DNA of 31,007 nucleotides from a virus (IMGVR_UViG_3300032304_000973:1-31007), one strand, 5' to 3'. Positions 1 to 10,980 are shown, counted from the first letter of the stretch. Translations and numbers: made by a program. Notes: generated by a model not told the origin, from the sequence alone.

Positions 1-20
1 ATTCCCCGATCCGGAGTCTG
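1..20 (+). promoter_or_regulatory. Repeated leader box, copy 1
   Basis: The window opens inside a copy of the box CCCGATCCGGAGTCT (core at 5-19). It lies 64 bases before the ATG at 84 and is followed by a stem-loop at 29-66. Upstream context is cut off. The same core recurs six more times, always in the same orientation as the following gene. Confidence 0.75.
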
Positions 21-28
21 GGAAGTGT

Positions 29-66
29 CGGCACGGCGACGACGGTTGTGATCGTCACCGTGACCG
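29..66 (+). other. Leader stem-loop between box copy 1 and the gene at 84
   Basis: Positions 29-42 pair with 52-66: three blocks (CGG/CCG, CAC/GTG, GG/CC) and an inner GACGA/TCGTC, with one bulged A and one C-A mismatch. No T-run follows, so it does not look like an intrinsic terminator. A processing or regulatory leader structure is more likely. Confidence 0.5.
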
Positions 67-83
67 GCACGAGGACCGTCCCC

Positions 84-359
84 ATGTTCAACCTGCAAGT
101 CGAGTTCGACAGCCCCTACGCCATGACATGCGTCTCGCAGTGGTTGGCGACGGAGCGTGAGTGTCGGCAAGTCATCAACGCGACGTGCGATGGGCAGACG
201 CTCTACCGCATTCTCGACCCCGACCGGAACGTGATCGTCGAGACTCGCTTCCCCGTGTTGATGGTCGCGGGCCCGACCCCGACGGACGGAGGCAAGCGGT
301 TCACCCGGTGGCTCGACGGCGCGTGGGGGGGCTGGTTCTCGGCCCCCGATGAACGCTGA
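84..359 (+). CDS. Small phage protein of unknown function, paralogue of 1357-1584
   Basis: This is a 91-residue protein starting at the ATG at 84, chosen because GAGGA lies 7 bases upstream. An in-frame GTG at 48 lacks a ribosome binding site and falls inside the leader stem-loop. I do not recognise a family. The middle and end (ECRQVINATCDG, LDPDRNVIVETRFPV) align by eye with the gene at 1357 (EARQFINRRANG, LDPDGEPMLTTRTPV), so the two are probably diverged duplicates. There is no signal peptide, membrane segment or metal-binding motif. The gene is a single-gene unit headed by box copy 1, and box copy 2 follows five bases after its stop. Likely an early accessory protein; function unknown. 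Confidence 0.7.
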   Translation: MFNLQVEFDSPYAMTCVSQWLATERECRQVINATCDGQTLYRILDPDRNVIVETRFPVLMVAGPTPTDGGKRFTRWLDGAWGGWFSAPDER

Positions 360-363
360 AAAA

Positions 364-378
364 CCCGATCCGGAGTCT
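364..378 (+). promoter_or_regulatory. Repeated leader box, copy 2
   Basis: CCCGATCCGGAGTCT sits just after the stop codon of the preceding gene and 108 bases before the ATG at 487. The bases before it (AAAAA) do not match the TTGATT(C/T)C flank of copies 3, 5 and 6, so the conserved part is the core. Confidence 0.75.
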
Positions 379-385
379 GGATTTT

Positions 386-425
386 GGTGGGACGGGATTT
401 GGCTGGTTCGACTCCAGCCCCCACC
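386..425 (+). other. Leader stem-loop with a tRNA T-arm-like tip
   Basis: GGTGGG (386-391) pairs with CCCACC (420-425), and GGCTGG (401-406) pairs with CCAGCC (414-419), closing the 7-base loop TTCGACT. The tip has the spacing and TTCGANT loop of a tRNA T-arm, and the outer stem sits where an acceptor stem would. The D-arm and anticodon arm are missing, so it is not a tRNA. A second hairpin (CGCC..GCCGC with GCGGC..GGCG) follows at 429-455. Confidence 0.5.
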
Positions 426-486
426 GTTCGCCACGCCGCAACTTCGCGGCTGGCGTGTTCGATGGTTCGCAACTGAGGAGATTCCC

Positions 487-999
487 ATGACCAAGTCCGA
501 AATCGCTGCCCTGATCGCCCAGTCGGTGTCCGCTTCCGTCAACGCGGCTTTCGGCCGGACGGCTGCCCCCGTGCCGGTTCCCGCACCCATCGCGTTTCAG
601 CGGACGGCTCCCGTGCCGACGGCTGTCCCTGCGGTGGCCGACGACGTGAAGGCCAAGCGTCTCGCGGGTCTGGAGAAGGCCCGTGCCCGTGCGGCTGAGG
701 TCAGGGCTGAGAAGGCCGCTGCGAAGGCGGCGGGTGTGATCCTGACCCCTCCCGCGAAGGCGGCTCCGGTGGCTTCCCCTGTCGCGGTGGTCGAGAAGCC
801 CGCGAAGGCTCCGAAGCAGGCGTGGAGCGTCAGGCCCCACGTTACGAAGAAAGGTGTCGCCGGGCTCATCGTGAGCGTGGGGCCGCTGGCCGCGTGGGTC
901 AAGGCGGGTGACACTGCCAAGATCAACGCGATCGTGGCCGCGTTCAACCTCATCCGCACGGGTGAGGTGAACACCATCGTCGCCGCGATGCGTGGCTGA
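487..999 (+). CDS. Ala/Pro/Lys-rich protein of unknown function
   Basis: A 170-residue protein. The start at 487 is supported by CTGAGGAG nine bases upstream; the reading frame is open further upstream but has no other good start. Residues 1-22 are a short helical segment. Residues about 27-50 carry a degenerate Pro-Ala-Val repeat (APVPVPAP, APVPTAVPAV), and residues about 55-80 are Lys/Arg/Ala/Glu-rich and probably helical. The last 60 residues (from PHVTKKGVAGL) look like a small folded domain ending IVAAMRG. I do not recognise a family. The layout, a basic linker plus a small C-terminal domain, would suit a nucleic-acid-associated protein, but that is a guess. It is a single-gene unit behind box copy 2. 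Confidence 0.7.
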   Translation: MTKSEIAALIAQSVSASVNAAFGRTAAPVPVPAPIAFQRTAPVPTAVPAVADDVKAKRLAGLEKARARAAEVRAEKAAAKAAGVILTPPAKAAPVASPVAVVEKPAKAPKQAWSVRPHVTKKGVAGLIVSVGPLAAWVKAGDTAKINAIVAAFNLIRTGEVNTIVAAMRG

Positions 1000-1022
1000 T
1001 CCCAACACGGGCTCACGCACCA

Positions 1023-1070
1023 CGCCCCGACTGTGGCTGTCGGCTTCGGCTGGCAGTCGCTTTCGGGGCG
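1023..1070 (+). other. Long UUCG-capped stem-loop in the leader of 1118
   Basis: CGCCCCGA (1023-1030) pairs perfectly with TCGGGGCG (1063-1070). The interior continues with GACTG/CAGTC-type pairing to a CTTCGG cap. A small CCTGC-GCCC-GCAGG hairpin follows at 1075-1088. A similar pair (UUCG-capped stem, then CCTGC/GCAGG) occurs in the 1900-1950 leader. There is no box copy here and no T-run. Confidence 0.55.
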
Positions 1071-1117
1071 TTCGCCTGCGCCCGCAGGACTGACCCCTAA
1101 CCCCTGAGGACAGACCC

Positions 1118-1354
1118 ATGTACGGACAGTTTGCCAGTGAAACCGGCGAGAAGTACGGCTCGTTCGAAGTGTTCCACCACGACGGCGTCCGCTTTTCGGA
1201 CGACGACTGTTGGGCAGACAGTGACGGCAACCCCATGCCCGCTGGCTGGTACTGGTGGGCCTGCTTTCCAGTCTGCATGCCCGACTCTGACCCGAACGGA
1301 CCCTTCGACACTGAGGCTGAGGCCACCGCCGACGCCCGGAACAGCGAGGACTGA
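1118..1354 (+). CDS. Small acidic, Trp-rich phage protein
   Basis: A 78-residue protein with the start set by TGAGGACAG upstream of the ATG. It is rich in Asp and aromatic residues. The segment GWYWWACFPVCMPDSDP, followed by GPFDTEAEATADA, resembles a short pattern I know from many uncharacterised phage proteins (a Trp-rich turn, then an acidic 'GPF.TE.EA.ADA' helix). No enzyme motif is visible. It stands two bases before the next ATG (1357) and is probably co-translated with 1357-1584 and 1581-1799. Function unknown. Confidence 0.7.
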   Translation: MYGQFASETGEKYGSFEVFHHDGVRFSDDDCWADSDGNPMPAGWYWWACFPVCMPDSDPNGPFDTEAEATADARNSED

Positions 1355-1356
1355 CC

Positions 1357-1584
1357 ATGTACTCAGTCACCTGCCTGTTCTCCACCCCGCGTGGACTGTG
1401 TGCCGACAGCGTCCAGTTCGACACAGAACTGGAGGCCCGGCAGTTCATCAACCGCAGAGCGAATGGCGTGAGGATGCTCACGCTGCTCGACCCTGACGGT
1501 GAGCCGATGCTCACCACGCGGACCCCTGTTCCCCTGACTGACCGAGACTCGACACCCCTTCACGAAAGGCGAGGTGCGACATGA
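1357..1584 (+). CDS. Small phage protein, paralogue of 84-359
   Basis: A 75-residue protein; the ATG follows CGAGGACTGACC. Residues about 20-55 repeat the pattern of the gene at 84: an EARQFIN helix, then a LDPDGEPMLTTRTPV strand pair. The N-terminus (MYSVTCLFSTP) is probably a beta strand. No catalytic or metal-binding residues stand out. Its stop overlaps the next start (ATGA at 1581-1584), which implies translational coupling. Function unknown; the duplication suggests the fold is useful to the phage. Confidence 0.7.
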   Translation: MYSVTCLFSTPRGLCADSVQFDTELEARQFINRRANGVRMLTLLDPDGEPMLTTRTPVPLTDRDSTPLHERRGAT

Positions 1585-1799
1585 GCGACATAGCGAAAGA
1601 ACTGCGAGAGAGATCACTGCTGGCAGAGCAGGAAGGCGAACCGTTGGCCTTGCTGGACGAGGCGGCCGACGAGATTGAGCGGCTGCGGTTCACCGACGAG
1701 GAGCGCGCGGCGTTGGAGTGGGCGGCGCATGACGCCTCGTATCGAGGGATGGAATGGACGGAGAGAGTGTTGCGAGGGGTGCTGAAACGGATAGGCTGA
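1581..1799 (+). CDS. Small helical phage protein of unknown function
   Basis: A 72-residue protein beginning in an ATGA overlap with the preceding stop, with GCGAGG upstream as binding site. It is strongly charged and predicted helical. The segment LLDEAADEIERLR, followed by TDEERAALEWAA, is a pattern common in small uncharacterised proteins of siphoviruses. No known enzymatic motif is present. It is the last gene of the 1118-1799 unit and is followed directly by a stem-loop at 1799-1826. Confidence 0.7.
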   Translation: MSDIAKELRERSLLAEQEGEPLALLDEAADEIERLRFTDEERAALEWAAHDASYRGMEWTERVLRGVLKRIG

Positions 1800-1826
1800 G
1801 AACGACGGGTTCGGGTTCCGTGTTCT
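1799..1826 (+). terminator. Possible weak terminator after the 1118-1799 unit
   Basis: AGAAC-g-ACGG (1799-1808) pairs with CCGT-GTTCT (1818-1826), starting at the stop codon. Only two T follow, so termination would be weak at best. The rest of the gap to 2013 holds box copy 3 and the leader hairpins. Confidence 0.35.
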
Positions 1827-1882
1827 TGACCGATACCGAATCACCAAGTCGTCCAACTGGTTCTGATTCGACCCCTTGATTC

Positions 1883-1897
1883 CCCGATCCGGAGTCT
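1883..1897 (+). promoter_or_regulatory. Repeated leader box, copy 3
   Basis: Core CCCGATCCGGAGTCT, preceded by CCCCTTGATTC as in copies 5 and 6. It lies 116 bases before the ATG at 2014. The UUCG-capped stem CGGGG/CCCCG (1907-1911 with 1924-1928) and a small CCTGC/GCAGG hairpin follow. Confidence 0.75.
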
Positions 1898-1953
1898 AGG
1901 TTTCAGCGGGGCGGCTTCGGCTACCCCGTTCTGACCTGCACTCCGCAGGCTCT

Positions 1954-1989
1954 CGCCCATCGCACTGTGCGGTGGGCGTTTGTGTTTCC
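1954..1989 (+). terminator. Intrinsic-terminator-like hairpin inside the leader of 2014
   Basis: CGCCCATCGCA (1954-1964) pairs with TGCGGTGGGCG (1968-1978) over 11 pairs with one T-G wobble and a 3-base loop, followed by TTTGTGTTT. It lies between box copy 3 and the gene at 2014, so a transcript starting at the box would meet it before the gene. That placement suits attenuation or antitermination. Confidence 0.55.
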
Positions 1990-2013
1990 ACCCCTGTTTC
2001 TGAGGAGGTTCCC

Positions 2014-2172
2014 ATGTCCGAGCCCATGAAGTTCGTCTCGCTGACCGCCGTCGCCAACGTGTTCAGCACCCCAGTCCCCGCGCTCGTGACCGAACTGCGA
2101 GGCATGACCGACCGCGAGCGTGCGGAGGTGGCCACGCTGGTCGCCGCCGTCGCCACCCCGACGGAGTCCTGA
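2014..2172 (+). CDS. Small phage protein of unknown function
   Basis: A 52-residue protein. The start at 2014 has an excellent site (TGAGGAGG, then TTCCC, then ATG); the in-frame ATG at 1972 lies inside a hairpin without a binding site. The sequence is mostly helical (LTAVANVFSTPVPALV, then MTDRERAEVATLVAAV) and ends in TES. No family recognised; the second helix with TDRERAE could be part of a small helix-turn-helix or oligomerisation unit, but this cannot be shown. The stop overlaps the start of box copy 4. It forms a single-gene unit. Confidence 0.65.
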   Translation: MSEPMKFVSLTAVANVFSTPVPALVTELRGMTDRERAEVATLVAAVATPTES

Positions 2173-2175
2173 TTC

Positions 2176-2190
2176 CCCGATCCGGAGTCC
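2176..2190 (+). promoter_or_regulatory. Repeated leader box, copy 4
   Basis: Core CCCGATCCGGAGTCC directly after the stop codon of the preceding gene, 98 bases before the ATG at 2289. The flank TGATTC agrees with copies 3, 5 and 6, although CCCCT is missing. Confidence 0.75.
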
Positions 2191-2198
2191 AACCATTG

Positions 2199-2240
2199 GC
2201 GGTCGAGGCCAGTCGTCACGTTGGCGGCTGGCCTCGCCGC
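2199..2240 (+). other. Leader stem-loop after box copy 4
   Basis: GCGG-t-CGAGGCCAGTC (2199-2214) pairs with GGCTGGCCTCGCCGC (2226-2240), about 15 pairs with a single bulged T. No T-run follows. Its sequence is unrelated to the stems after the other boxes, although the position is the same. Confidence 0.55.
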
Positions 2241-2288
2241 TCACCCCGATATGAAGCGGTTGCTCGATGTCTCAGTGGAGAACTAACA

Positions 2289-2651
2289 ATGGCCCTGACA
2301 GTCAAGAACTGCCGACAGGCAGTGACAGAGCGACGGAAGTTTCGTGTGTCCACTCTGTACGGCGGAGAACACACCGCATCTGATGGTACGAAGATGTATC
2401 GAGTCTGCTCGGGAGACAGTGCGTACCCGCTGTTCGTGTGGGCAGACGGCATCTGGTGCGAGAACAAGGATGCTCCCAACGCATACAGCAGACGCCGTCA
2501 TGTCCGCGCACGTCAGCAGTATTACGCCCGGCCTAGCGTGCCAGCCAGAGAGATCATGATGATGCACTGGAAGGAGATGGCGAACTTCATCCACGCTGGC
2601 GGTGAACACCACCCGAAGATGAAGAAACTTCTGGGCTGTTCGGCGGGGTGA
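2289..2651 (+). CDS. Basic phage protein of unknown function
   Basis: A 120-residue protein. I chose the ATG at 2289 because the longer frame runs back into the stem-loop; the local site (GGAGAAC, eight bases upstream) is moderate. The protein is basic and rich in His, Tyr and Met. Features include a central WADGIWCENKDAP strand-turn, a run of Arg (YSRRRHVRARQQYY) and a C-terminal helix with MMMHWKEMANFIH. The basic patch could bind nucleic acid, but no known fold is recognisable. It is a single-gene unit between box copies 4 and 5. Confidence 0.65.
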   Translation: MALTVKNCRQAVTERRKFRVSTLYGGEHTASDGTKMYRVCSGDSAYPLFVWADGIWCENKDAPNAYSRRRHVRARQQYYARPSVPAREIMMMHWKEMANFIHAGGEHHPKMKKLLGCSAG

Positions 2652-2665
2652 AGGCCCCTTGATTT

Positions 2666-2680
2666 CCCGATCCGGAGTCT
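2666..2680 (+). promoter_or_regulatory. Repeated leader box, copy 5
   Basis: Core CCCGATCCGGAGTCT preceded by CCCCTTGATTT. It is 55 bases before the ATG at 2736, the shortest spacing of the seven copies, with a terminator-like hairpin in between. Confidence 0.75.
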
Positions 2681-2688
2681 GGTTTTGC

Positions 2689-2722
2689 AGCCGGTGGCAT
2701 GGTGCCGTCGGCTTTCTTTTTT
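2689..2722 (+). terminator. Intrinsic terminator between box copy 5 and the clamp-like gene
   Basis: AGCCGGTGGCA (2689-2699) pairs with TGCCGTCGGCT (2703-2713), 11 pairs with two wobbles and a 3-base loop, followed by TTTCTTTTTT. This has every mark of a Rho-independent terminator, yet it lies downstream of the box and ends 13 bases before the start codon of the next gene. Either the box is not a promoter, or read-through here is controlled. Confidence 0.7.
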
Positions 2723-2735
2723 CCCTGAGGTGACC

Positions 2736-3563
2736 ATGAAGATTCCATCGTTCATCAAGCAGATCGTGAAGTGCTGCGACACGGAGGCAAGCAAGTACGC
2801 ACTCGGAGGCGTGAAGTGTGAGAGCGACGGACAGATCGCTCGACTCACTGCCACCGACGGCAGGGTGATGGTCAGTGTCCAGTCCGCAGACGACGGGCCC
2901 GCAGTGGATGCCGTCGTGGATGGCAAGACACTGGCTGCTATCCCCGCCGCTGCGCTCAGGTCGAAGCACAGCGTCGAGTTCTTGGGTGACAGACTGGAGT
3001 ACCACGACAAGCCGGGCTTCGTGTCGGTCAAGGTCGATCCACTGGAGGGTCGGTTCCCACGCTACGAGGACGTGTTCGATTCCATCTACGCCAGCGGGAC
3101 GGACAGACACGCAGTCGTGAAACTCGACGCTGCCATGCTCCGCAAACTGGCGGACGTGGCGGACGCGATGGACCCGGACGGCAACAGAAAGGGGATCACG
3201 CTGTTCGTGGGTGCATCAGACAAGGCGGTGTTCGCAACCTGCCGCAGTGAGGACGGGTACATCGCACGCATGGTGGTCATGCCGCGAGTCGAGGGCGAGG
3301 GCACTGACTTCTCGTTCCCAACTGCGGGCTCGACGCCTGCGTTCACCACGCCTGAGCCCAAGCCCAAGCGGGACATGGTCGTGCAGAACACGACCGTGTA
3401 TCCGGACGGACGACGGGTGCCGGGCGACACGGTGAACGTGACGACGGGCAAGGTGCTGGCACCCCCGCCCGAGATGCTCGACGACGACGCCATCGCTGAG
3501 GCGGTGACACGAGAGCCTGCCTGCATCGGGATCATCGAGGGTGACCTCGACCCGGTGTCGTGA
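2736..3563 (+). CDS. Sliding-clamp-like protein (DNA polymerase III beta-like)
   Basis: A 275-residue protein; the ATG at 2736 follows CTGAGGTGACC. Several segments match what I know of beta-clamp folds: an N-terminal helix-strand unit ending LTATDGRVMVSV, then VVDGKTLAAIPAAAL, a central GRFPRYEDVF (compare the 'FP.Y' turn of DnaN domains), a helix KLDAAMLRKLADVADAMD, and ITLFVGASDKAVFAT. A bacterial beta clamp has three domains in about 370 residues, so this would be a shortened, probably two-domain form. The last 60 residues are Pro/Asp-rich and look like a flexible tail. The likely role is holding a polymerase on DNA during phage replication. The call rests on pattern memory, not alignment; a small beta-rich unknown is the alternative. 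Confidence 0.5.
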   Translation: MKIPSFIKQIVKCCDTEASKYALGGVKCESDGQIARLTATDGRVMVSVQSADDGPAVDAVVDGKTLAAIPAAALRSKHSVEFLGDRLEYHDKPGFVSVKVDPLEGRFPRYEDVFDSIYASGTDRHAVVKLDAAMLRKLADVADAMDPDGNRKGITLFVGASDKAVFATCRSEDGYIARMVVMPRVEGEGTDFSFPTAGSTPAFTTPEPKPKRDMVVQNTTVYPDGRRVPGDTVNVTTGKVLAPPPEMLDDDAIAEAVTREPACIGIIEGDLDPVS

Positions 3564-3574
3564 CCCCTTGATTT

Positions 3575-3589
3575 CCCGATCCGGAGTCC
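3575..3589 (+). promoter_or_regulatory. Repeated leader box, copy 6
   Basis: Core CCCGATCCGGAGTCC preceded by CCCCTTGATTT, starting 12 bases after the stop of the clamp-like gene and 69 bases before the ATG at 3659. Confidence 0.75.
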
Positions 3590-3594
3590 GATTG

Positions 3595-3628
3595 GTGGGG
3601 CAGCCGTCGATGGTGGCGGTTGCCCCAC
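3595..3628 (+). other. Leader stem-loop after box copy 6
   Basis: GTGGGGCAGCCG (3595-3606) pairs with CGGTTGCCCCAC (3617-3628), 12 pairs including one G-T. No T-run follows. It occupies the same position as the stems after the other boxes. Confidence 0.55.
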
Positions 3629-3658
3629 TTCCATTACCCACACGCAAGGAGGCGTGCC

Positions 3659-3733
3659 ATGAAACCTGACCAGATGGAACTGGTTCTGTTGATCGTTCGG
3701 ATTGTTCTTCACCTCATTCAGAAAGGATCGTGA
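3659..3733 (+). CDS. Very short ORF (24 aa), possible leader peptide
   Basis: The ATG at 3659 has one of the best ribosome binding sites in the window (AAGGAGG, seven bases upstream) but opens only 24 codons. The product begins MKPDQMELVLLIVRIVL and is mostly hydrophobic in the middle. The stop lies three bases before the next ATG (3737), and its last codons carry the binding site for that gene. It could be a membrane-inserting micropeptide or a leader ORF whose translation opens the next start. Evidence is limited to the start signal and position. Confidence 0.5.
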   Translation: MKPDQMELVLLIVRIVLHLIQKGS

Positions 3734-3736
3734 CCC

Positions 3737-3952
3737 ATGCCATACCCCGATTCGGAATACCCCAGCACCCTGCGTGGACGCAGTAAGCGTGAGTCGCAGA
3801 GGCTGCTGGCTGCGGCACCTGACTTGCTTTCTGCCCTCAAGTTCATGTACGTCGAGTTCCGCGTCTTACAGGCGATGCACGACAGATGGAGTGAGTTCGT
3901 GCTCTCCGATGCGAAGGAAGCCATCGCGAAGGCGGAAGGGAGGGACGGATGA
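3737..3952 (+). CDS. Small phage protein of unknown function
   Basis: A 71-residue protein starting three bases after the micro-ORF, with GAAAGGA as binding site. The pattern RLLAAAPDLLSALKFM, followed by a C-terminal AKEAIAKAEGR helix, is very common in small uncharacterised phage proteins ('AAAPDLLEAL...AIAKA'). It is mostly helical, with no enzyme motif. Its stop overlaps the start of the LexA-like gene (ATGA at 3949-3952), so the two are coupled. Confidence 0.7.
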   Translation: MPYPDSEYPSTLRGRSKRESQRLLAAAPDLLSALKFMYVEFRVLQAMHDRWSEFVLSDAKEAIAKAEGRDG

Positions 3953-4209
3953 AACCCTCCCTCACCTACGTCGAGTTCCGCACCCTGTGCCTGATCGCCA
4001 ACGAGATCAACAAGCACGGGGTGCAGCCGTCCTACCGGGAGATCGCTGACCGGTTCGACTACTCCTCCGCTGCCTCCATCACGAACGTGATGCAAAGGCT
4101 GGAGTACAAGGGGCTCGTCACTCGCATCGGACTGCGTGCGGTTCGGTTCGACTGGCGACGGTATCTCAAGCACCCACTCAACCCGAAGGAGTTCCTGACA
4201 ACGCGATGA
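3949..4209 (+). CDS. LexA-type winged-helix DNA-binding protein without protease domain
   Basis: An 86-residue protein. Residues about 5-60 follow the N-terminal DNA-binding domain of LexA: a first helix TYVEFRTLCLIANEINKHG, the turn QPSYREIADRF, the recognition helix SSAASITNVMQRLEYKGLV, then a wing ending TRIGLRAVRFDW. LexA's autoprotease half is absent, so the protein cannot self-cleave and would be a simple regulator. The start has GGGAGGGA upstream and overlaps the previous stop. A perfect 9-bp inverted repeat begins at its own stop codon (4207-4235) and could be an operator or RNA hairpin. It probably regulates phage transcription; the targets are unknown. Confidence 0.75.
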   Translation: MKPSLTYVEFRTLCLIANEINKHGVQPSYREIADRFDYSSAASITNVMQRLEYKGLVTRIGLRAVRFDWRRYLKHPLNPKEFLTTR

Positions 4210-4235
4210 CTGGCCCGAGTGCAGTCGGCCAGTCA
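4207..4235 (+). repeat. Perfect 9-bp inverted repeat after the LexA-like gene
   Basis: TGACTGGCC (4207-4215) and GGCCAGTCA (4227-4235) are exact complements separated by 11 bases. As RNA this is a stable hairpin without a T-run; as DNA it is a dyad with arms long enough for a dimeric regulator. It lies just before a possible -35 hexamer (TTGACT at 4242). Confidence 0.55.
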
Positions 4236-4241
4236 CAACCG

Positions 4242-4269
4242 TTGACTAGGTACTGCACACATGTACACT
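4242..4269 (+). promoter_or_regulatory. Possible sigma-70-type promoter
   Basis: TTGACT (4242-4247) and TACACT (4264-4269) are 16 bases apart. The predicted start would be near 4276, on top of the AGGAGA binding site of the gene at 4287, which leaves little leader. It would sit beside the inverted repeat at 4207-4235. Treat as a weak candidate. Confidence 0.3.
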
Positions 4270-4286
4270 CACACAGGAGACGGGGT

Positions 4287-4472
4287 ATGCCACACCCTAC
4301 CACTACCCTTGCTCTCAAGCGTGAGGAAATCGAGCGGGTCATCACAGCCCTGCACGAGAGTGCCTCAGACAGAGAGCAGTGGGACGAAGTCGATGAAGCG
4401 ACAGCGTTCGTGACGCTGGAGCAGAAGTTTCTCAAGGCCCATCACACCATCATCAGGAGTTCACAGACATGA
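4287..4472 (+). CDS. Small helical protein of unknown function
   Basis: A 61-residue protein. I chose the ATG at 4287 because AGGAGA precedes it by seven bases; the frame extends back to 4206, but that start lies inside the inverted repeat. The sequence is charged and helical (REEIERVITALHESA, then EQWDEVDEATAFVTLEQKFLKAHH), perhaps a helical hairpin. No known family. The stop overlaps the next start (ATGA at 4469-4472), so it is coupled to the 289-residue protein that follows and may act with it. Confidence 0.65.
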   Translation: MPHPTTTLALKREEIERVITALHESASDREQWDEVDEATAFVTLEQKFLKAHHTIIRSSQT

Positions 4473-5338
4473 ACACCATCTCCATCGGTTCGAAGTCCGG
4501 CGGCGTCTGCATCCTCAACACCCGTGCCTGCCTGCGTGATCTCATTCAACAGGCTGCGGATGCGGTTGGGTGCGGCAAGTACATCCCGAAGCAACCGCCT
4601 GCCACCACTGTCCTTCGCCTCGCCATGCACGGCGTCGGCGTCGGGCTCTACGGCAAGCAGAGGAAGCAGCCGATCAGCGTGCGTCACGTTGACGGCAACG
4701 ACTTCGAATGCGTGCGTGTTATCCCGGACGGGGACCGCAACAAGTACCTTCACCTGTTCACTGCCACCATCGACAAGCAGTGGGGAGTGACGGTCACTGT
4801 CACCAACCCGGTGTTCGCCATCGGGGCACAGGTCGAGCCCGCACTGGCTGCCGCTGTCGGCCAACTGCGGGACTACCTGCCAGCCACCATCGTGAGCAAG
4901 GCCACTGTCCGCATCCTCCAGTCATGGAAGGGCGTGCCGATGGCTGAGGGTGGCGGCGTCTGGTTCTTGGGTGAGCAGCACCTCGACAAGTACCAGCAGT
5001 TCGCCTCCGGTGTGCGAGGGACGAACGGCAGTGGTTCCCTGTTCTCGCTCACCAAGTTCGACATCGACGCCAACCCGGAGACGGCTGGCGAAGTGCTGAA
5101 CAAGGTGCGTGAGACTGTCGCCGCTGGCGTGGCCGAGATCATGGACGACATCGCCAACAGCCCCGACGGTTTCAACGACCGGTCCATCAAGGTCCGGGTC
5201 GCCCGGTCCAACAGCATGCTCGACATGATCCGGCAGTACCGCGACCTGATGGGCGTGGACATGCCCGAACTGGTCGAGGCAATCGAGCAGGTCAAGAGTG
5301 CGGTGAGCATTCACCGACTCCTGTCCGCCAGCGTCTGA
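4469..5338 (+). CDS. Phage protein of about 290 aa, unknown function
   Basis: A 289-residue protein; the binding site CAGGAG lies nine bases before the ATG. The N-terminal half is probably mixed alpha/beta (LHLFTATIDKQWGVTVTV, then NPVFAIGAQVEPALAAAV). The middle has GGVWFLGEQHLDKYQQFASG and SGSLFSLTKFDIDANPE, and the last 110 residues are helical (AGEVLNKVRETVAAGVAEIM, RQYRDLMG, LVEAIEQVKSAVSIHRLL). Length and this layout remind me of an uncharacterised phage family (possibly DUF6744), but I cannot confirm that. It stands upstream of the MoxR/VWA module and might supply a substrate or adaptor; this is inferred from position only. Confidence 0.6.
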   Translation: MNTISIGSKSGGVCILNTRACLRDLIQQAADAVGCGKYIPKQPPATTVLRLAMHGVGVGLYGKQRKQPISVRHVDGNDFECVRVIPDGDRNKYLHLFTATIDKQWGVTVTVTNPVFAIGAQVEPALAAAVGQLRDYLPATIVSKATVRILQSWKGVPMAEGGGVWFLGEQHLDKYQQFASGVRGTNGSGSLFSLTKFDIDANPETAGEVLNKVRETVAAGVAEIMDDIANSPDGFNDRSIKVRVARSNSMLDMIRQYRDLMGVDMPELVEAIEQVKSAVSIHRLLSASV

Positions 5339-5368
5339 GTTTCACCACCCCAACAGAGGAGAGTTCCC

Positions 5369-5749
5369 ATGAAGAAGATGCGTCGCCTGACCCTCGACTA
5401 CACCCAGTTCCTTGCCGACTACAAGGAAGCGTTCGAGGCTGGCATCACGGTCAATGAGTTCTGCCAACTCATCGGCCTGTCAATCGGTGGCCTTCACACC
5501 CGGATGGAGACGCTCGCCAAGAGAGGCGTTCTACTTCCGCTGCTGAAGGGCATGCACGTCAAGTCCCGGCAGGGGGCACGCCTTGCTGGCAAGCCCATGC
5601 CCACACGTCGCAAGCCCGGCCTGATCCTCGACGCCATCCACGTCGAGCCTGTCCCCTCCCTGCCCGAGCCCGTCGCTGACGAGCCCGGCACGCAGGATGT
5701 CCCCGTCCCGGCGTTCGCCTTCACGGCATACGTCGGCTCCGGTTTCTAG
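5369..5749 (+). CDS. Putative helix-turn-helix protein
   Basis: A 126-residue protein whose ATG follows GAGGAGAG..TTCCC. Residues about 8-55 can be read as a helix-turn-helix: a first helix YTQFLADYKEAFEAG, then ITVNEFCQLIGL, SIGGLHTRMETLAKRGV as recognition helix, and a short strand LLPLLKG. Residues 60-85 are basic (KSRQGARLAGKPMPTRRKPG) and the end is Pro/acidic-rich and probably disordered. This would fit a small DNA-binding regulator or terminase-small-subunit-like protein. It is the last gene before box copy 7 and the ATPase module. Moderate certainty for the HTH, none for the target. Confidence 0.55.
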   Translation: MKKMRRLTLDYTQFLADYKEAFEAGITVNEFCQLIGLSIGGLHTRMETLAKRGVLLPLLKGMHVKSRQGARLAGKPMPTRRKPGLILDAIHVEPVPSLPEPVADEPGTQDVPVPAFAFTAYVGSGF

Positions 5750-5766
5750 TCGATGGCCGCAGGATT

Positions 5767-5781
5767 CCCGATCCGGAGTCC
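5767..5781 (+). promoter_or_regulatory. Repeated leader box, copy 7
   Basis: Core CCCGATCCGGAGTCC with GGATT before it, 79 bases before the ATG of the MoxR-like gene. This is the last copy I can find; none is seen in the rest of the window on either strand. Confidence 0.75.
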
Positions 5782-5789
5782 ATTCGGTG

Positions 5790-5823
5790 GGGGGAAGGGG
5801 TGGCACTGTGCTGCCCCTCCCCC
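5790..5823 (+). other. Leader stem-loop before the MoxR-like gene
   Basis: The left arm (GGGGG-a-AGGGG-TGGCA, 5790-5805) pairs with the right arm (TGCTGCCCCTCCCCC, 5809-5823): about 15 pairs with one bulged A and wobbles near the tip. No T-run follows. Confidence 0.55.
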
Positions 5824-5860
5824 AGTCCAGTAGGTTTCACACTCTGAGGAGTTCTCAATC

Positions 5861-6976
5861 ATGTCTCGCCCCAATCTCGGCAACGTGCCCGGCTTTCTCG
5901 CCCTTCAAGTTGCCCCCACCCTGTTTCAGGGAGGTGTCGGACTCGGCAAGTCATCCTCGCTGGAGGCGCTGGCCGGTGCCCTCAAGCGTAGGCTGGTCGC
6001 ACTGTACGGTGCGACTCACCTGCCCGAAGATTTCTCTGGTTACCCCACGCCTGACCACGAGGCTGGCGTGGTACGCATGCTGCCCACTGACCTGTGGGAA
6101 CAGACGAAGGATGGAATGGCACTCGTCTGCATCGACGAGGTGACCAACGTGCCGTCCGCCACACAGGCTGGCCTCCTGTCCGTCCTCACTGAGCGACGGG
6201 TGGGTGGCTACCGGATGCCCGAGTCCACGCTCATGGTGGGTGCGATGAACCCACCCGAACTGTGCCCCAACGCAGTGCCCCTCTCGCCTGCGATGCGGTC
6301 GCGGTTCGTCCACTTCGACTGGGTGGTGGACTACGACCACTGGTTCGCTGGCCTGCGGGCTGGCTGCGTGTGGTCTGCCCCTGAGTTCCCCATCGTGCCG
6401 GGCCACTGGACCGACATGCTTCCGCAGTTCGGCTCGCTTGTCGAGGCGTTCCTGCGGTCGGCCCCCGATGCCCGCGAGAAGTTGCCGACTGACGACACGA
6501 CCCTCGCCTTCCCCAACCTGCGGACGTGGACGTACCTCGTCAAGGTCTGTGCCGCAGCGGAAGCCTGCGGGTACGAGTGGCGGAAGGAACGGAAAGACCC
6601 CATCTACGCCACGCTCTGTGCCGGTGCGGTGGGGACGGAACATTCCAGTATGTTCCTGCGGTACGCCCAGCAACTCGACCTGCTCAACCCGGAGGAGTTC
6701 CTGAGCGGGACGGTCAACTACAAGTACGAGAACAGGCCGGACGCCAACATCTGCCTGCTGACTGGCATCGTCCGCTGCCTGCGGTCGAACCCGTCTAAGG
6801 AACGGTGGGAGCGTGCGGCTGAGGCGTTCCTTGAGATCGGCACGCATGAGATCGAGTCGTTCCTCATGCAGTTCAAGTCCTTCTGGAAGCCGGTGAAGGA
6901 CGGTGGCGTGCGGCCCGACGGGTGGACTCCCCCGAAGGAAACGCTCGCCAAGTTGATGGCACTGGTGCAGTCGTGA
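5861..6976 (+). CDS. MoxR-like AAA+ ATPase
   Basis: A 371-residue protein, the usual size for MoxR ATPases. Walker A is GGVGLGKS (residues 24-31), Walker B is MALVCIDE (86-93), sensor 1 is the Asn of GAMNPP (about 130), and LSPAMRSRF (about 141-149) supplies the Arg finger region. The C-terminal 220 residues form a helical lid. MoxR proteins hydrolyse ATP to remodel or load cofactors into partner complexes and almost always work with a VWA-domain protein; such a partner lies two genes on (7170-8594). The start follows TGAGGAG. The end overlaps the next start (GTGA at 6973-6976), so the module is co-translated. It is headed by box copy 7 and a strong stem-loop. Confidence 0.85.
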   Translation: MSRPNLGNVPGFLALQVAPTLFQGGVGLGKSSSLEALAGALKRRLVALYGATHLPEDFSGYPTPDHEAGVVRMLPTDLWEQTKDGMALVCIDEVTNVPSATQAGLLSVLTERRVGGYRMPESTLMVGAMNPPELCPNAVPLSPAMRSRFVHFDWVVDYDHWFAGLRAGCVWSAPEFPIVPGHWTDMLPQFGSLVEAFLRSAPDAREKLPTDDTTLAFPNLRTWTYLVKVCAAAEACGYEWRKERKDPIYATLCAGAVGTEHSSMFLRYAQQLDLLNPEEFLSGTVNYKYENRPDANICLLTGIVRCLRSNPSKERWERAAEAFLEIGTHEIESFLMQFKSFWKPVKDGGVRPDGWTPPKETLAKLMALVQS

Positions 6977-7173
6977 CCGCTACGCCTGCACAGATGAAGG
7001 AGGATGCACTGCGGGGGTTGTGTCACAGCGACCCCCGCAGTCCCTTCTTCATCGAACCCGATGACGACGATGCAACGCCACGCACAGTTCCGTGCGGCGG
7101 TTGCGACTGCTGCTTCTACGGCAGAGACACACTGGCCCGACACATCATCACCCTGTTGGAGGAGAGACAATGA
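6973..7173 (+). CDS. Small Cys-rich protein between the ATPase and VWA genes
   Basis: A 66-residue protein starting at GTG 6973 in a GTGA overlap with the ATPase stop; an ATG seven codons later (6994) is an alternative. The key segment is CGGCDCCFYGRDTLARH (residues about 43-59), which packs four Cys and a His and could bind zinc. The N-terminal half is acidic (EPDDDDAT). Its stop overlaps the start of the VWA gene. The tight coupling on both sides suggests it works within the ATPase/VWA complex, perhaps as an adaptor; no family recognised. Confidence 0.6.
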   Translation: MTATPAQMKEDALRGLCHSDPRSPFFIEPDDDDATPRTVPCGGCDCCFYGRDTLARHIITLLEERQ

Positions 7174-8594
7174 CCCCACGACAACTGCTCGGTCAGGCAC
7201 GGGTGCGGACGTTTGAGTACGTCCCCTACCTTGCCTCCTACATCTACAGTCTCAAGGAACGGGAGACTCCCGGCATCGGCACTACCGCTGTCGATGATGC
7301 GGGGAACCTGTACTGGGACCCCAAGTTCATAGTCGAGTGCGGAGTAGACAAGGGTGCGTACCTTGTCGCGCACGAAGTGCTGCACCTCATCTTCGACCAC
7401 CACTCGCGGGCGAAGGAGATGGTGCCGCACCCCACCCCGCAGCAGAAGTTCATCCTGAACGTGGCGGCTGACCTTGTCGTCGAGCAGACGCTCAAGGGCA
7501 TGCGTCACCTGCGGCCTGAGGGTGGCATCTGTCTGGGAGTATGCGTCCCGCAACTGGGCGGGGTGAAACTCAACTTCCCAGAGAACCGTTCGTTCCAAGA
7601 ATACTACCGACTGATCTGCGAGAAACTGAAGACTCAGTCAGAACAGGAGAAGAAGGATGACAAAAGCAAGGCACGCGGCGATGGTCGTGGCGGTGACTCG
7701 CGGAATCCCGGACAACCGGGTGATCGTGATAGCCAACGGCCGAACGGCTCTGGCCCTCAAGCGGGCAGCGATCAGTCAGGGAGCGGCGGTGACTCCGCCG
7801 ACAACCCTGCCGGACAGGGACGGGATCAGGGACATGGCGGCAGTCCTGCTGACCGTCGCCCCTGCGCTCCGGGAACTGGCGGTTCGTGTGCTGACGGCGT
7901 CAAGAGGCAGTACGAAGTCGAGAGCGATGGGTCGTGGGAAACCTACGGGCAGGACATCGCAGCGGCAGGCATCGAGAAGTACGAGAACGACAATCCCGGC
8001 TCGGTGCCCGGCACCATCAAAGACGCGATCAAGGCCCGGCTGCACCCCACGCCGGACCCGTTCGCCCAACTGAAGTCTGCCGTCTGCACTAGCGTTGCTT
8101 CGCCTGTCGGTGGGCGTGACTTCACCCACCGCAGGCGGTCGAAGAAGCAGTCGCCGGGCAAGGACGACCCGCTGCTGCACGGGCGGATGACGGTGCAGCC
8201 CTACGCTGTCGTGATCGTGGACACGTCGGGCTCGATGATGACCCCTGAGATTCAGGCGAAGGCCCTGTCTGTGATCGGGCAGGGTCTGCGGAAGTTGGGG
8301 AGGGTGAAGGTGTACTGTGCCGACACCCACGTCCGGTCGAAGGCGGAGGTGTCCAGCATCCGCTCGTTCGACTGGCATGGCGGTGGTGGCACCAACATGT
8401 CGAGGGCGGTGGAGGAGGTGGACGAGAAGGACAAGCCCGACTCGATCATCCTCCTCACCGACGCCGAGACTCACTGGTCGTCCAAGAAGCCGCGAGCCCG
8501 CGTGGTCGTGGCCTACACGGGCAAGCGTGGGTCGCACTGGCACAAGGCGATCCCGTCCTACTTCCGCACCGTCCCCCTCACGAAGGAGTCCTGA
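7170..8594 (+). CDS. HExxH metallopeptidase-like plus VWA-like domain protein (DUF2201 type)
   Basis: A 474-residue protein with the ATG at 7170 following TTGGAGGAGAGAC. Residues about 5-165 hold a peptidase-like domain with HEVLH (68-72) and further His at 77-78, as in the N-terminal domain of the DUF2201 family. Residues about 165-265 are a Gly/Ser/Asp/Gln-rich, probably disordered linker. Residues about 345-474 are a VWA-like domain with a DTSGS metal-ion site (351-355), a GGGGTNM turn and IILLTDAE. Together with the MoxR-like ATPase this forms the classic AAA+/VWA pair that remodels or activates a target. The HExxH makes cleavage of a protein possible but not proven. The target could be a host complex or the 325-residue protein that follows. 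Confidence 0.8.
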   Translation: MTPRQLLGQARVRTFEYVPYLASYIYSLKERETPGIGTTAVDDAGNLYWDPKFIVECGVDKGAYLVAHEVLHLIFDHHSRAKEMVPHPTPQQKFILNVAADLVVEQTLKGMRHLRPEGGICLGVCVPQLGGVKLNFPENRSFQEYYRLICEKLKTQSEQEKKDDKSKARGDGRGGDSRNPGQPGDRDSQRPNGSGPQAGSDQSGSGGDSADNPAGQGRDQGHGGSPADRRPCAPGTGGSCADGVKRQYEVESDGSWETYGQDIAAAGIEKYENDNPGSVPGTIKDAIKARLHPTPDPFAQLKSAVCTSVASPVGGRDFTHRRRSKKQSPGKDDPLLHGRMTVQPYAVVIVDTSGSMMTPEIQAKALSVIGQGLRKLGRVKVYCADTHVRSKAEVSSIRSFDWHGGGGTNMSRAVEEVDEKDKPDSIILLTDAETHWSSKKPRARVVVAYTGKRGSHWHKAIPSYFRTVPLTKES

Positions 8595-8595
8595 C

Positions 8596-9573
8596 ATGGA
8601 AGGGAAACTGAAGCGACTGAAGAAGAACGTGATGACGTTCGATCAGATTGACCAGCGGGTGTACCGTGCGAGGAATGGTTCCTTCACGCGGCCACCCGAC
8701 ATCTTGCACCAAGACAAGGCGGGGACGGTGACAGCCTATGTCCCATACATCGGGTGCATGGGGTACTGGCTGCACTGGAAGGGCGTCCTCAAGGAATACG
8801 GGTGCGTCTCGACAGCCGAGACTGCGACAATGACCTTCGCGTCCGTGTGGAAACTCTCGGACGGAGACACTGGCTACATCGTGTACGGGACCGAAATCGA
8901 CAGGGCGAAGGACGACTGGGAAAAGGCGAGACTGAGACTTTGGAGACGCTACGTCCGGGCCCTCACGCCGCACGATTCTCGCATAAGGATCGAGGAGGGC
9001 ACCCGCTTGTTCTATCGAGTGCGACGAGACGGGCATGTCGAGGGCCCATGGTCAGCATCGTCCGGGCCACAGAGCCGTGAGAACCCGAATCAGTTCAAGC
9101 ACGGCATGTGGAAGACTCTCCCGAAAGCCATGCGTCCGCAGCCAGAATCTTGGGCGAAGGGCGATAGCATGCGGTTCGCGGAGCATCCAAAGTTCATGTC
9201 ACGAAGCATCCGGTTCGTGCGTGAACTGCGTCGGCAACTGAAGGGAGGGCCGGAGCATGTCATTCAGTTGCTGCACAAACAGGAAGGCCGGACGTTCGGA
9301 CCAGAGTCGGTGCAGTTCTCTGTGTGCCTGCCGCCAACCCGGAATGCGAACGGGCCGCGAATCATCGTGGCGGCAGCGATGCACACCTACGAATCGCGGC
9401 ACCGCTACAGAGTTGATGGTGACTACACGCCACATCACTCGCAGTATTACGTCTGGTACGAGCAGCACGGCAGCCGATCTGAAGGGACGGATCGGTTCAA
9501 GTGCGGCAAGGAAGCGATGGCGGCGATCATCGAGTGGTACTGGAGTTTCCTCCGCATACCCGGACCGGAGTGA
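8596..9573 (+). CDS. Unknown protein of 325 aa following the MoxR/VWA pair
   Basis: The ATG at 8596 stands two bases after the VWA stop and uses AAGGAGTCC as binding site. The 325-residue product is basic and rich in Arg, Trp, Tyr and His. Recognisable segments are few: YVPYIGCMGYWLHWKGV, WEKARLRLWRRYVRAL, FYRVRRDGHVEGPW, a Lys/Arg helix RFVRELRRQLKGG, and GTDRFKCGKEAMAAIIEWYWSFL at the end. There is no Walker motif or metal cluster. Position suggests it is the third partner or the client of the ATPase/VWA system. I do not recognise a family. Confidence 0.65.
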   Translation: MEGKLKRLKKNVMTFDQIDQRVYRARNGSFTRPPDILHQDKAGTVTAYVPYIGCMGYWLHWKGVLKEYGCVSTAETATMTFASVWKLSDGDTGYIVYGTEIDRAKDDWEKARLRLWRRYVRALTPHDSRIRIEEGTRLFYRVRRDGHVEGPWSASSGPQSRENPNQFKHGMWKTLPKAMRPQPESWAKGDSMRFAEHPKFMSRSIRFVRELRRQLKGGPEHVIQLLHKQEGRTFGPESVQFSVCLPPTRNANGPRIIVAAAMHTYESRHRYRVDGDYTPHHSQYYVWYEQHGSRSEGTDRFKCGKEAMAAIIEWYWSFLRIPGPE

Positions 9574-9578
9574 CAGAC

Positions 9579-9782
9579 ATGCTTGACACCAAGTACAGCG
9601 GCTACTCCATCCGCGAGCGATGGAACGAGATGATCGGCAGGAACGACTCGACCTTCGGGTTCCTGTTGCGTCTCTGTGTCGTTGGGTTCTGTGTCGTCAC
9701 GGCACTGGACCCGCATGCCAGTTACTACATGTCACCGCAGATATGGGTGCTGGTCTGGCTGTTCATTTACTTCTACCTGTAG
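9579..9782 (+). CDS. Small membrane protein
   Basis: A 67-residue protein starting five bases after the previous stop; the upstream CCGGAG is a fair binding site. A charged N-terminus (SIRERWNEMIGRND) is followed by a membrane segment FLLRLCVVGFCVVTAL and a second aromatic one, IWVLVWLFIYFYL, that runs to the C-terminus. It probably inserts in the inner membrane as a two-pass protein. It could be a holin, a superinfection factor or a membrane anchor for the module upstream; nothing decides between these. Confidence 0.6.
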   Translation: MLDTKYSGYSIRERWNEMIGRNDSTFGFLLRLCVVGFCVVTALDPHASYYMSPQIWVLVWLFIYFYL

Positions 9783-9791
9783 GAGACACTC

Positions 9792-10529
9792 ATGCCAATG
9801 GTCTACTGTTACGGCAGGGCCTCGACTGACAAGCAGGCCCTGACCGAATCGGCACAGCGTTCGGTCTGCGAGGACTACGTCCAGAGGGCACTGACCCCGC
9901 TGGGTTTCCAGTACGGTGGCTGGCACTACGATCCCGCCACGTCCGGCAGCACCCAGATGTTCGAACGGGAGCAGGGTCGCAGGCTCTGGGTTCTGGTTCA
10001 GCCGGGCGACAGGATCGTGTGGGCGAAACTCGACCGGGCATTCCGCTCGTCATACGACTTCGTCAGCACCATGCAGTTGTTGCAGTCGAAGGGTGTGTCG
10101 TTCTCCTCGCTCGACATCGGTCTGGACAGCAGCACCCCCATCGGCAAGTGTGTGTTCACCATCATGGCGGCGTTCGCAGAACTGGAGCGTGACTTCATCC
10201 GGGAGCGGACACGCAACGGCATGCGGGCGAAGCGACAGGTCAACAAGCCCATCAACCCCCACGCACCCATCGGTTGGAAGAAGGTGGGCGTGAAGCGGGA
10301 TTCCTACTGGCTCCCCGACCCACTGGAGCGGGCTCAGGTTGACCGGATGGTGACCATGCGGGATGCAGGCACGAGCCTTGAGCGGATCGTCATCGCGTTC
10401 AGGGCCGAGAGGCGGACGAACGGCAGGTTCTGGAACATCAACTCGGTGACGCGAGCCATCACGGCAGCAAGGGCTCGCTACCCAAAAGCGTTCCAAGAAC
10501 CTTCAGTGCCACGTCCAGCCTCCGTTTGA
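9792..10529 (+). CDS. Serine recombinase (resolvase/invertase family)
   Basis: A 245-residue protein; TAGGAGACACTC precedes the ATG. The catalytic N-terminal domain shows YGRASTDKQ (Arg 9, nucleophile Ser 11), then GDRIVWAKLDRAFRS (residues 72-86, with the conserved LDR.FR), and TPIGKCVFTIMAAFAELERDFIRERT, the long helix of the dimer interface. Residues 150-235 form a small DNA-binding part (ERAQVDRMVTMRDAGTSLERIVIAFR). The length is that of a small resolvase or invertase rather than a large serine integrase. It may resolve multimers, invert a segment or act in integration. Its last 71 bases overlap the 3' end of the opposite-strand sigma gene. Confidence 0.85.
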   Translation: MPMVYCYGRASTDKQALTESAQRSVCEDYVQRALTPLGFQYGGWHYDPATSGSTQMFEREQGRRLWVLVQPGDRIVWAKLDRAFRSSYDFVSTMQLLQSKGVSFSSLDIGLDSSTPIGKCVFTIMAAFAELERDFIRERTRNGMRAKRQVNKPINPHAPIGWKKVGVKRDSYWLPDPLERAQVDRMVTMRDAGTSLERIVIAFRAERRTNGRFWNINSVTRAITAARARYPKAFQEPSVPRPASV

Positions 10530-10980
10530 TGGTTCGTGGGTCGCAGCGAGCGTAGTCCCCTATCTCCCGGAGACTGAGCCCGCGATAGTACCGCAGGTGG
10601 ATGAGCCTGCGGTAGCGTGCAGGGAGGCGGGCGATGGCTGTCTGGAGTTTGGTGGCCATGCTGTTGGGGGCAACTGCCAGTGCCTCCGCCAACTCCATTG
10701 GCACCCGGTCAGGCGAGTCGTACCGGGACCGACGGTTCCTGTCGATCTCTTTCAGCAGGGCGTTGCGAACCGCCATCGAGAAGTAGGTCGTGACCTTCGA
10801 CTTGTCGGAGTCATAGGTCTTGGCCGCACGGCACACCGCAAGGTAGGCCACACTCATGGAGTCGATCTGTCGCAGCGGCTTGCGAAGCGTCGGGTATCGA
10901 CACCTGAAGGCGATGATCGCCTTCGGGACGACAGCCATCGCCTCCTCCGCCAGTGCTTTCTGTTGGTCTGTGAGGTGCAT
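10459..10980 (-). CDS. Sigma-70 family RNA polymerase sigma factor
   Basis: A 173-residue protein. Region 2 is seen in MSVAYLAVCRAAKTYD, then KVTTYFSMAVRNALLKEIDR (residues about 41-80). Region 4 is the HTH at IARLPARYRRLIHLRYYRG, then LSLREIGDYARCDPRTIKRR, near the C-terminus. Regions 1 and 3 are missing, as in ECF-like or phage-encoded factors. It would redirect host RNA polymerase to phage promoters. The start is uncertain: AAGG directly abuts the ATG at 10980, while a well-placed AAGGAGG serves an out-of-frame ATG at 11002. It is the last gene of the long leftward cluster and overlaps the serine recombinase tail to tail by 71 bases. Confidence 0.8.
   Translation of the reverse strand: MHLTDQQKALAEEAMAVVPKAIIAFRCRYPTLRKPLRQIDSMSVAYLAVCRAAKTYDSDKSKVTTYFSMAVRNALLKEIDRNRRSRYDSPDRVPMELAEALAVAPNSMATKLQTAIARLPARYRRLIHLRYYRGLSLREIGDYARCDPRTIKRRLDVALKVLGTLLGSEPLLP

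Follow-up and report, generated by a model that had tools for sequence, protein, structure and literature searches.

The 31,007-nt contig IMGVR_UViG_3300032304_000973, a viral record of IMG/VR (hereafter the window, i.e. the whole stretch of DNA analysed), carries seven copies of a 14-mer, CCCGATCCGGAGTC, each followed by a hairpin and then by the start of a gene. These boxes are probably promoters read by the host RNA polymerase together with a sigma factor that the phage itself encodes, a protein of the extracytoplasmic function (ECF) type whose gene lies on the minus strand at 10459-10980. The same signal, the hairpins and the sigma gene were found in about 20 uncultured relatives. A phage-specific promoter had been one of the options raised in a preliminary description of the window, and on the evidence of strand, a fixed pyrimidine-purine step, an upstream element and the ECF sigma, it now appears to be the best-supported reading.

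The seven exact copies start at 5, 364, 1883, 2176, 2666, 3575 and 5767, all on the plus strand, and about 56-117 nt separate the end of a box from the next ATG. This confirms the preliminary description of seven identical boxes on a single strand, each with a hairpin and then a gene behind it. A uniform-base estimate of the number of exact 14-mers expected by chance in 31 kb is about 0.0002. No exact copy was found on the minus strand of the window and no further copy with up to two mismatches anywhere along its 31 kb, in agreement with the earlier remark that the leftward half is devoid of the box. The core is the 13-mer CCGATCCGGAGTC, with positions numbered 0-12. The seven cores lie at 6-18, 365-377, 1884-1896, 2177-2189, 2667-2679, 3576-3588 and 5768-5780, and the putative transcription starts associated with them are G27, G386, A1905, G2198, a displaced step at C2688 A2689 for box 5, G3597 and G5789. 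The boxes belong to a rightward gene block (84-9782, plus strand), which encodes small unknown open reading frames (ORFs), a clamp-like protein, a winged helix-turn-helix (wHTH) protein, a second helix-turn-helix (HTH) protein, an AAA ATPase and a DUF2201 metallopeptidase/VWA protein.

Relatives were gathered through the AAA ATPase encoded downstream of box 7 (5861-6976), which yielded 25 loci at 50-86% identity, and the family sequences are all uncultured IMG/VR phage contigs. At the equivalent places, 17 related contigs hold CCG[C/A/G]TGCGGAGTC. Across the AAA-ATPase loci, the box occurs as CCGCTGCGGAGTC (160 copies), CCGATGCGGAGTC (8 copies) and CCGGTGCGGAGTC (3 copies), always on the plus strand. 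Among 17 contigs examined, 16 of which carry the box, 141 of the 142 exact cores lie on the block strand, in one block. There, 165 gaps between genes measure 60-200 nt, and 143 of them contain the box, as does 1 of 122 shorter gaps; the box typically starts 3-6 nt past the upstream stop codon (median 5 nt) and 56-150 nt ahead of the next gene. About 12 further cores fall within called genes, and those lacking the downstream signature, as several do, may be due to chance or coding. When three near-complete genomes of 60-63 kb were scanned with a 27-nt weight matrix, intergenic sites scored about 22-39 bits and nothing outside the block exceeded 14.7 bits. Furthermore, a search for the exact box in other viral contigs returned single, scattered matches; beyond the family, viral and GTDB contigs gave only chance-like ones, with a few extra family contigs surfacing. 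The preliminary description had proposed a search in relatives, where scattered, unconserved copies in both orientations would have spoken against a functional element; no such pattern was observed.

Conservation reaches beyond the 14-mer to a unit of about 27 nt, which is joined by an upstream element where space allows. Past the box, the logo runs on as TG-NN-T-NN-Y-R, and the pyrimidine-purine (Y-R) step at positions 20/21, 8 nt beyond the box, is present in 118 of 128 leaders and in nearly all leader types, against about 25% elsewhere. The AT fraction is 0.44-0.88 at positions 15-20 and 0.12-0.31 at positions 21-29, while the mean RNA pairing probability climbs from about 0.5 to 0.8 at positions 21/22. 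In leaders 2 and 3 of the window the hairpin begins exactly at the Y-R step, the putative start, and in the remaining leaders within two bases of it. Moreover, an element near TTTCCCCGCAGTTTTC (TTT-CCCC-GC-A-G-TTTTC) is visible in boxes with an upstream stop codon 14-30 nt away (n=26), which include several unrelated leaders; its TTTCCCC part is located at -37 to -31 relative to the Y-R step, and it is distinct in these 26 boxes with upstream room and weak in the others.

A sigma-dependent promoter is expected to have a -10-like element about 5-8 nt ahead of a purine start. GTC-TG is a -10 type preferred by ECF sigmas, and here it is followed at fixed spacing by the Y-R step as presumed start. 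Together, the -35-like element, the -10-like element and the putative start have the geometry of a promoter. The purine at position 21 (counting CCGATCCGGAGTC as 0-12) would be +1, and the 3' end of the box would form the -10 region, with GTC at -11 to -9, then TG and AT-rich sequence as far as -1. The remainder of the box would fall in the spacer (-21 to -12), with TTTCCCC as a -35-like element at about -37 to -31, distinct only if the upstream ORF ends far enough away. Each promoter would thus start an mRNA at the foot of a hairpin. A hairpin foot at the Y-R step is predicted by a transcription start, and specific cleavage would predict it too. The box could in that case be a processing signal, directing an endoribonuclease to cleave a long transcript 8 nt downstream so that each mRNA keeps its 5' hairpin, and the resemblance of some leaders to a tRNA acceptor and T-arm, an RNase P-like shape, would suit this explanation. 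We nonetheless consider it very unlikely, as it does not predict the -35-like element and we know of no nuclease reading a GC-rich 13-mer.

The leader hairpins of the window, all on the plus strand, extend over 25-70 (hairpin 1, slot LT2), 386-425 (hairpin 2), 1905-1930 (hairpin 3), 2199-2240 (hairpin 4, slot LT4), 2689-2713 (hairpin 5), 3595-3628 (hairpin 6) and 5790-5823 (hairpin 7, slot LT3). Shuffle z-scores of whole window leaders range from +0.15 to -5.3, and the mean is -2.9 over 128 family leaders compared with -1.55 for 50 control gaps. Compensatory changes were observed in hairpin 1 over 15 phages and in hairpin 7 over 16. In the first-slot alignment 96.9% of cells are paired, with 13 double changes, and in that of the AAA-gene hairpin 90.6%, with 19 double changes; neither covariation score was reached by any of the 500 shuffles or by any slid control. 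The earlier proposal that structure is under selection is thereby strengthened. Its companion statement, that the hairpin sequence is not conserved, holds between the slots of one phage (median leader identity 0.60, with 0.57 for shuffled pairs) but not for the same slot in different phages (0.81). An Rfam search at the boxes found no RNA family match. The 5' hairpin most likely shields the 5' end of the mRNA while leaving the ribosome binding site free.

Terminator-like leaders, in which a T-run comes after the hairpin, number 56 of 154, roughly one third, compared with about 16 in shuffled sequences. In the window, this arrangement is found in hairpin 5, followed by TTCTTTTTTC, and in a second hairpin of leader 3 (1954-1978, plus strand), followed by TTTGTGTTT. 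Such leaders may halt read-through from the preceding gene, so that insulation is possibly a second function of the hairpins. They are also what would be expected if the box were a put-, nut- or qut-like antitermination element, allowing the polymerase to pass the terminator-like hairpins that follow. A canonical terminator stands directly after the variant box of contig L042, and a conserved block with a hairpin upstream of box 1 could be part of an upstream promoter. Antitermination seems unlikely to us, since it predicts neither the fixed Y-R step nor the AT-rich stretch nor the -35-like element, and the T-run is absent from most leaders. Moreover, no antiterminator gene was recognised; the sigma proteins weakly resemble the Q-like PHROG 79, in region 4 only.

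Some leaders have the shape of a tRNA acceptor and T-arm minihelix, with a TTCGACT loop and without D and anticodon arms (hairpin 2 of the window, and leaders at 2302 in L040, 3722 in L131 and 12366 in L113). They begin at or beside the putative start, and their stems vary between phages yet pair. Behind one box, very short conserved ORFs encoding 24-31 aa (M.PDQMELVLLIVRIV..., M..WTHTEIEL...) are located at 3659-3733 in the window and at 5365 in L021, 7705 in L023 and 8021 in L036. The window copy has its ribosome binding site in the loop of a small hairpin, CACGC-AAGGAG-GCGTG (3641-3656, plus strand).

The candidate reader of the box is a protein of 173 aa, which passes the curated cut-offs of the Pfam models Sigma70_r2, r4_2 and r4 (PF04542, PF08281 and PF04545) and of NCBIfam TIGR02937 (58.7 bits, cut-off 42.9). 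With regions 2 and 4 above these cut-offs, a short length and no other domains, it has the make-up of an ECF sigma. Sigma-family searches recovered such a protein in 10 of the first 10 records, window included, and in 10 of 11 further ones, and it is encoded in the family loci that extend to the place of the gene. Its identity is 61-85% among the phages with the box, 60% in L042 and about 51% in L044 and L045. In the box phages, the recognition helix of region 4, DPRTIxRRL, shows almost no variation.

Box and sigma appear to change together. In each of the seven window leaders, the box deviates from that of its relatives at two positions, even though these leaders remain 73-82% similar to their best counterparts. 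The window sigma has six residues that none of the sixteen others share, including two within the region-4 HTH (Y143 and K152), which offer only a lead for the change of box. L042 has the box variant GTGCTGCGGAGTC. L044 has no box, but it has its own one-strand motif in four copies, TTTTCAGGNNCTGGAGAACA, some of which are preceded by a similar CCCC..TTTTC. A partial shift inside a single genome is seen in L025, where 5 of about 11 boxes read CCGCTGCGGCGTC, with A replaced by C at one core position.

Promoter geometry alone would equally fit recognition by a host sigma factor, with the phage sigma serving other promoters, and the window could infect a different host of slightly altered specificity. 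This alternative is improbable in our judgement: a scan for the extended motif across 84,980 species, each represented by a single genome, gave 29 matches in unrelated taxa and no genome with clustered sites, and no other shared repeated motif that the phage sigma might use was seen in the minus-strand gaps.

Several observations weigh against recognition of the boxes by the phage sigma. Most of the box would lie in the spacer, a region which sigmas usually read little, and its invariance exceeds what is usual. Where a box stands beside a stop codon, its -35-like element is mostly poor, and the element differs from the usual GGAAC of ECF promoters; the variable box positions, -18 and -16, are not directly explained by Y143 and K152. 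The sigma gene itself lacks a box and is located at the end of an opposite-strand module that includes tail genes. Terminator-like hairpins right after a start, at the frequency given above, would be odd for plain promoters. Furthermore, the L044 phages lack the box while retaining the sigma, and two copies of the L044 motif overlap ribosome binding sites.

Other readers were considered. The box is an asymmetric 13-mer, intergenic and in a single orientation, and the block encodes a LexA-type wHTH protein (3949-4209, plus strand) and the second HTH protein (5369-5749, plus strand), so that an oriented, stoperator-like operator bound by one of them could be imagined. The stoperators of cluster A mycobacteriophages, to which the phage repressor binds, are likewise asymmetric 13-bp oriented sites, for which we know of no start-like step or hairpin. 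Both proteins were disfavoured, as their recognition helices differ widely among phages with an identical box, and these candidate repressors do not track it. The fixed start-like step and the hairpin foot would also be left unexplained, and we consider an operator very unlikely. Antisense RNA was rejected as a reader because no conserved complementary stretch was found. T7-type promoters, a parallel drawn in the preliminary description, comprise many one-strand promoters with 5' hairpins, and promoter and polymerase change together. The parallel is not supported: the three largest unassigned ORFs are unlike polymerases, and a PF00940 search for a single-subunit RNA polymerase matched 0 of 17 contigs, with the control genomes giving no match either. 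Of the two kinds of gene that the preliminary description had suggested looking for, a single-subunit polymerase or a regulator, it is the latter, an ECF sigma, that the box phages encode. An operator or an RNA element explains fewer facts than a promoter does.

Phage sigmas with private promoters are already known, and phiEco32 gp36 and 7-11 gp47 are the nearest described cases found. The phiEco32 sigma (phi32_gp36) has six mapped middle/late promoters with a single AT-rich element, tAATGTAtA; it is described as being without homology to region 4, and it is annotated as an ECF sigma in the near-identical phage SU10 (PMC8948821, PMC4281155). The likeness consists of a phage-encoded sigma, its own promoter consensus and a start 6-8 bp past the element (PMC8948821, PMC4281155), and the box family has weak portal matches of SU10/P22 type. 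In contrast, the consensus described here is GC-rich and longer, about 6-12 boxes precede single small genes or gene pairs, and the sigma has region 4. In phage 7-11, the sigma SaPh711_gp47 does have region 4, and eight late-gene promoters are bipartite (GTAAtg-16-aCTA; PMC8948821), as proposed for the boxes; the consensus differs, and an array of hairpin leaders is not described in the part of PMC8948821 consulted.

The Start-Associated Sequences (SAS) of cluster K mycobacteriophages are 13-bp asymmetric repeats, typically 3-7 bp before a start codon and containing AGGAG (PMC3203893), in a paper which also mentions the stoperators of cluster A. Like the boxes, they have a near-single orientation, accompany non-structural genes only and are kept before differing gene families, with a partner motif that varies by subcluster (PMC3203893). 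However, the boxes lie at least 56 nt from the start codon in nearly all cases and hold no ribosome binding site, which sets them apart from SAS, and the inverted repeats of SAS do not support RNA pairing (PMC3203893), whereas the leader hairpins do. Given the precedent of phiEco32 and 7-11, and the differences from SAS in distance, RNA pairing and ribosome binding site, the box system would be a variant of known phage sigma/promoter systems.

Other elements of the family genomes were also recorded. Between the SSB gene and box 1 lies a strongly conserved stretch of about 270 nt (2180-2452 in L043, alignment A6), which may be an origin or an upstream promoter; it comprises GGGAAAAAATCCAGGAGGGGAACGTAACT, a G run and a TTCACGC...GCGTGAA hairpin, and L044 has a similar stretch. 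In L043, the near-palindrome CTATACAGGCGCCCAGTATAG (2210-2235), located upstream of the SSB gene, is a possible operator. The AAA ATPase gene adjoins that of the DUF2201 metallopeptidase/VWA protein (7092-8594), and the pair is kept with the block, also in L044. As for the host, the terminase is about 23% identical to those of Arthrobacter phages, no relatives of the AAA protein were found in species genomes, and a search for tRNA genes found none.

The order of the slots is constant across phages, while the proteins behind a given leader differ, as seen for slots LT2 and LT4 in L021-L043. The first leader is followed by at least six unrelated small proteins and LT4 by eight protein groups; these groups derive from BLAST at 1e-4 on short proteins, where distant kinship could escape. 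Slot LT6, whose first ORF is a tiny conserved peptide, was left out of this argument. Tentatively, the box-leader units might act as address labels of a cassette array, in which recombination between phages swaps unrelated small ORFs behind a kept promoter and hairpin leader, and dissimilarity among the leaders of a genome is maintained, keeping the exchange in register. Accessory genes would in this way be exchanged under a private sigma, a possibility that we hold to be doubtful at present.

If the boxes are promoters for the phage sigma, both a signal and its reader would have been identified in a phage family for which metagenomes are the only source. The two would constitute a natural pair of sigma and promoter, whose consensus is GC-rich and unusually long, and the window would represent a natural shift in specificity, all seven of its promoters being altered at the same two positions. 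The genomes would, moreover, have a layout in which promoter-leader slots persist and the genes behind them are exchanged.

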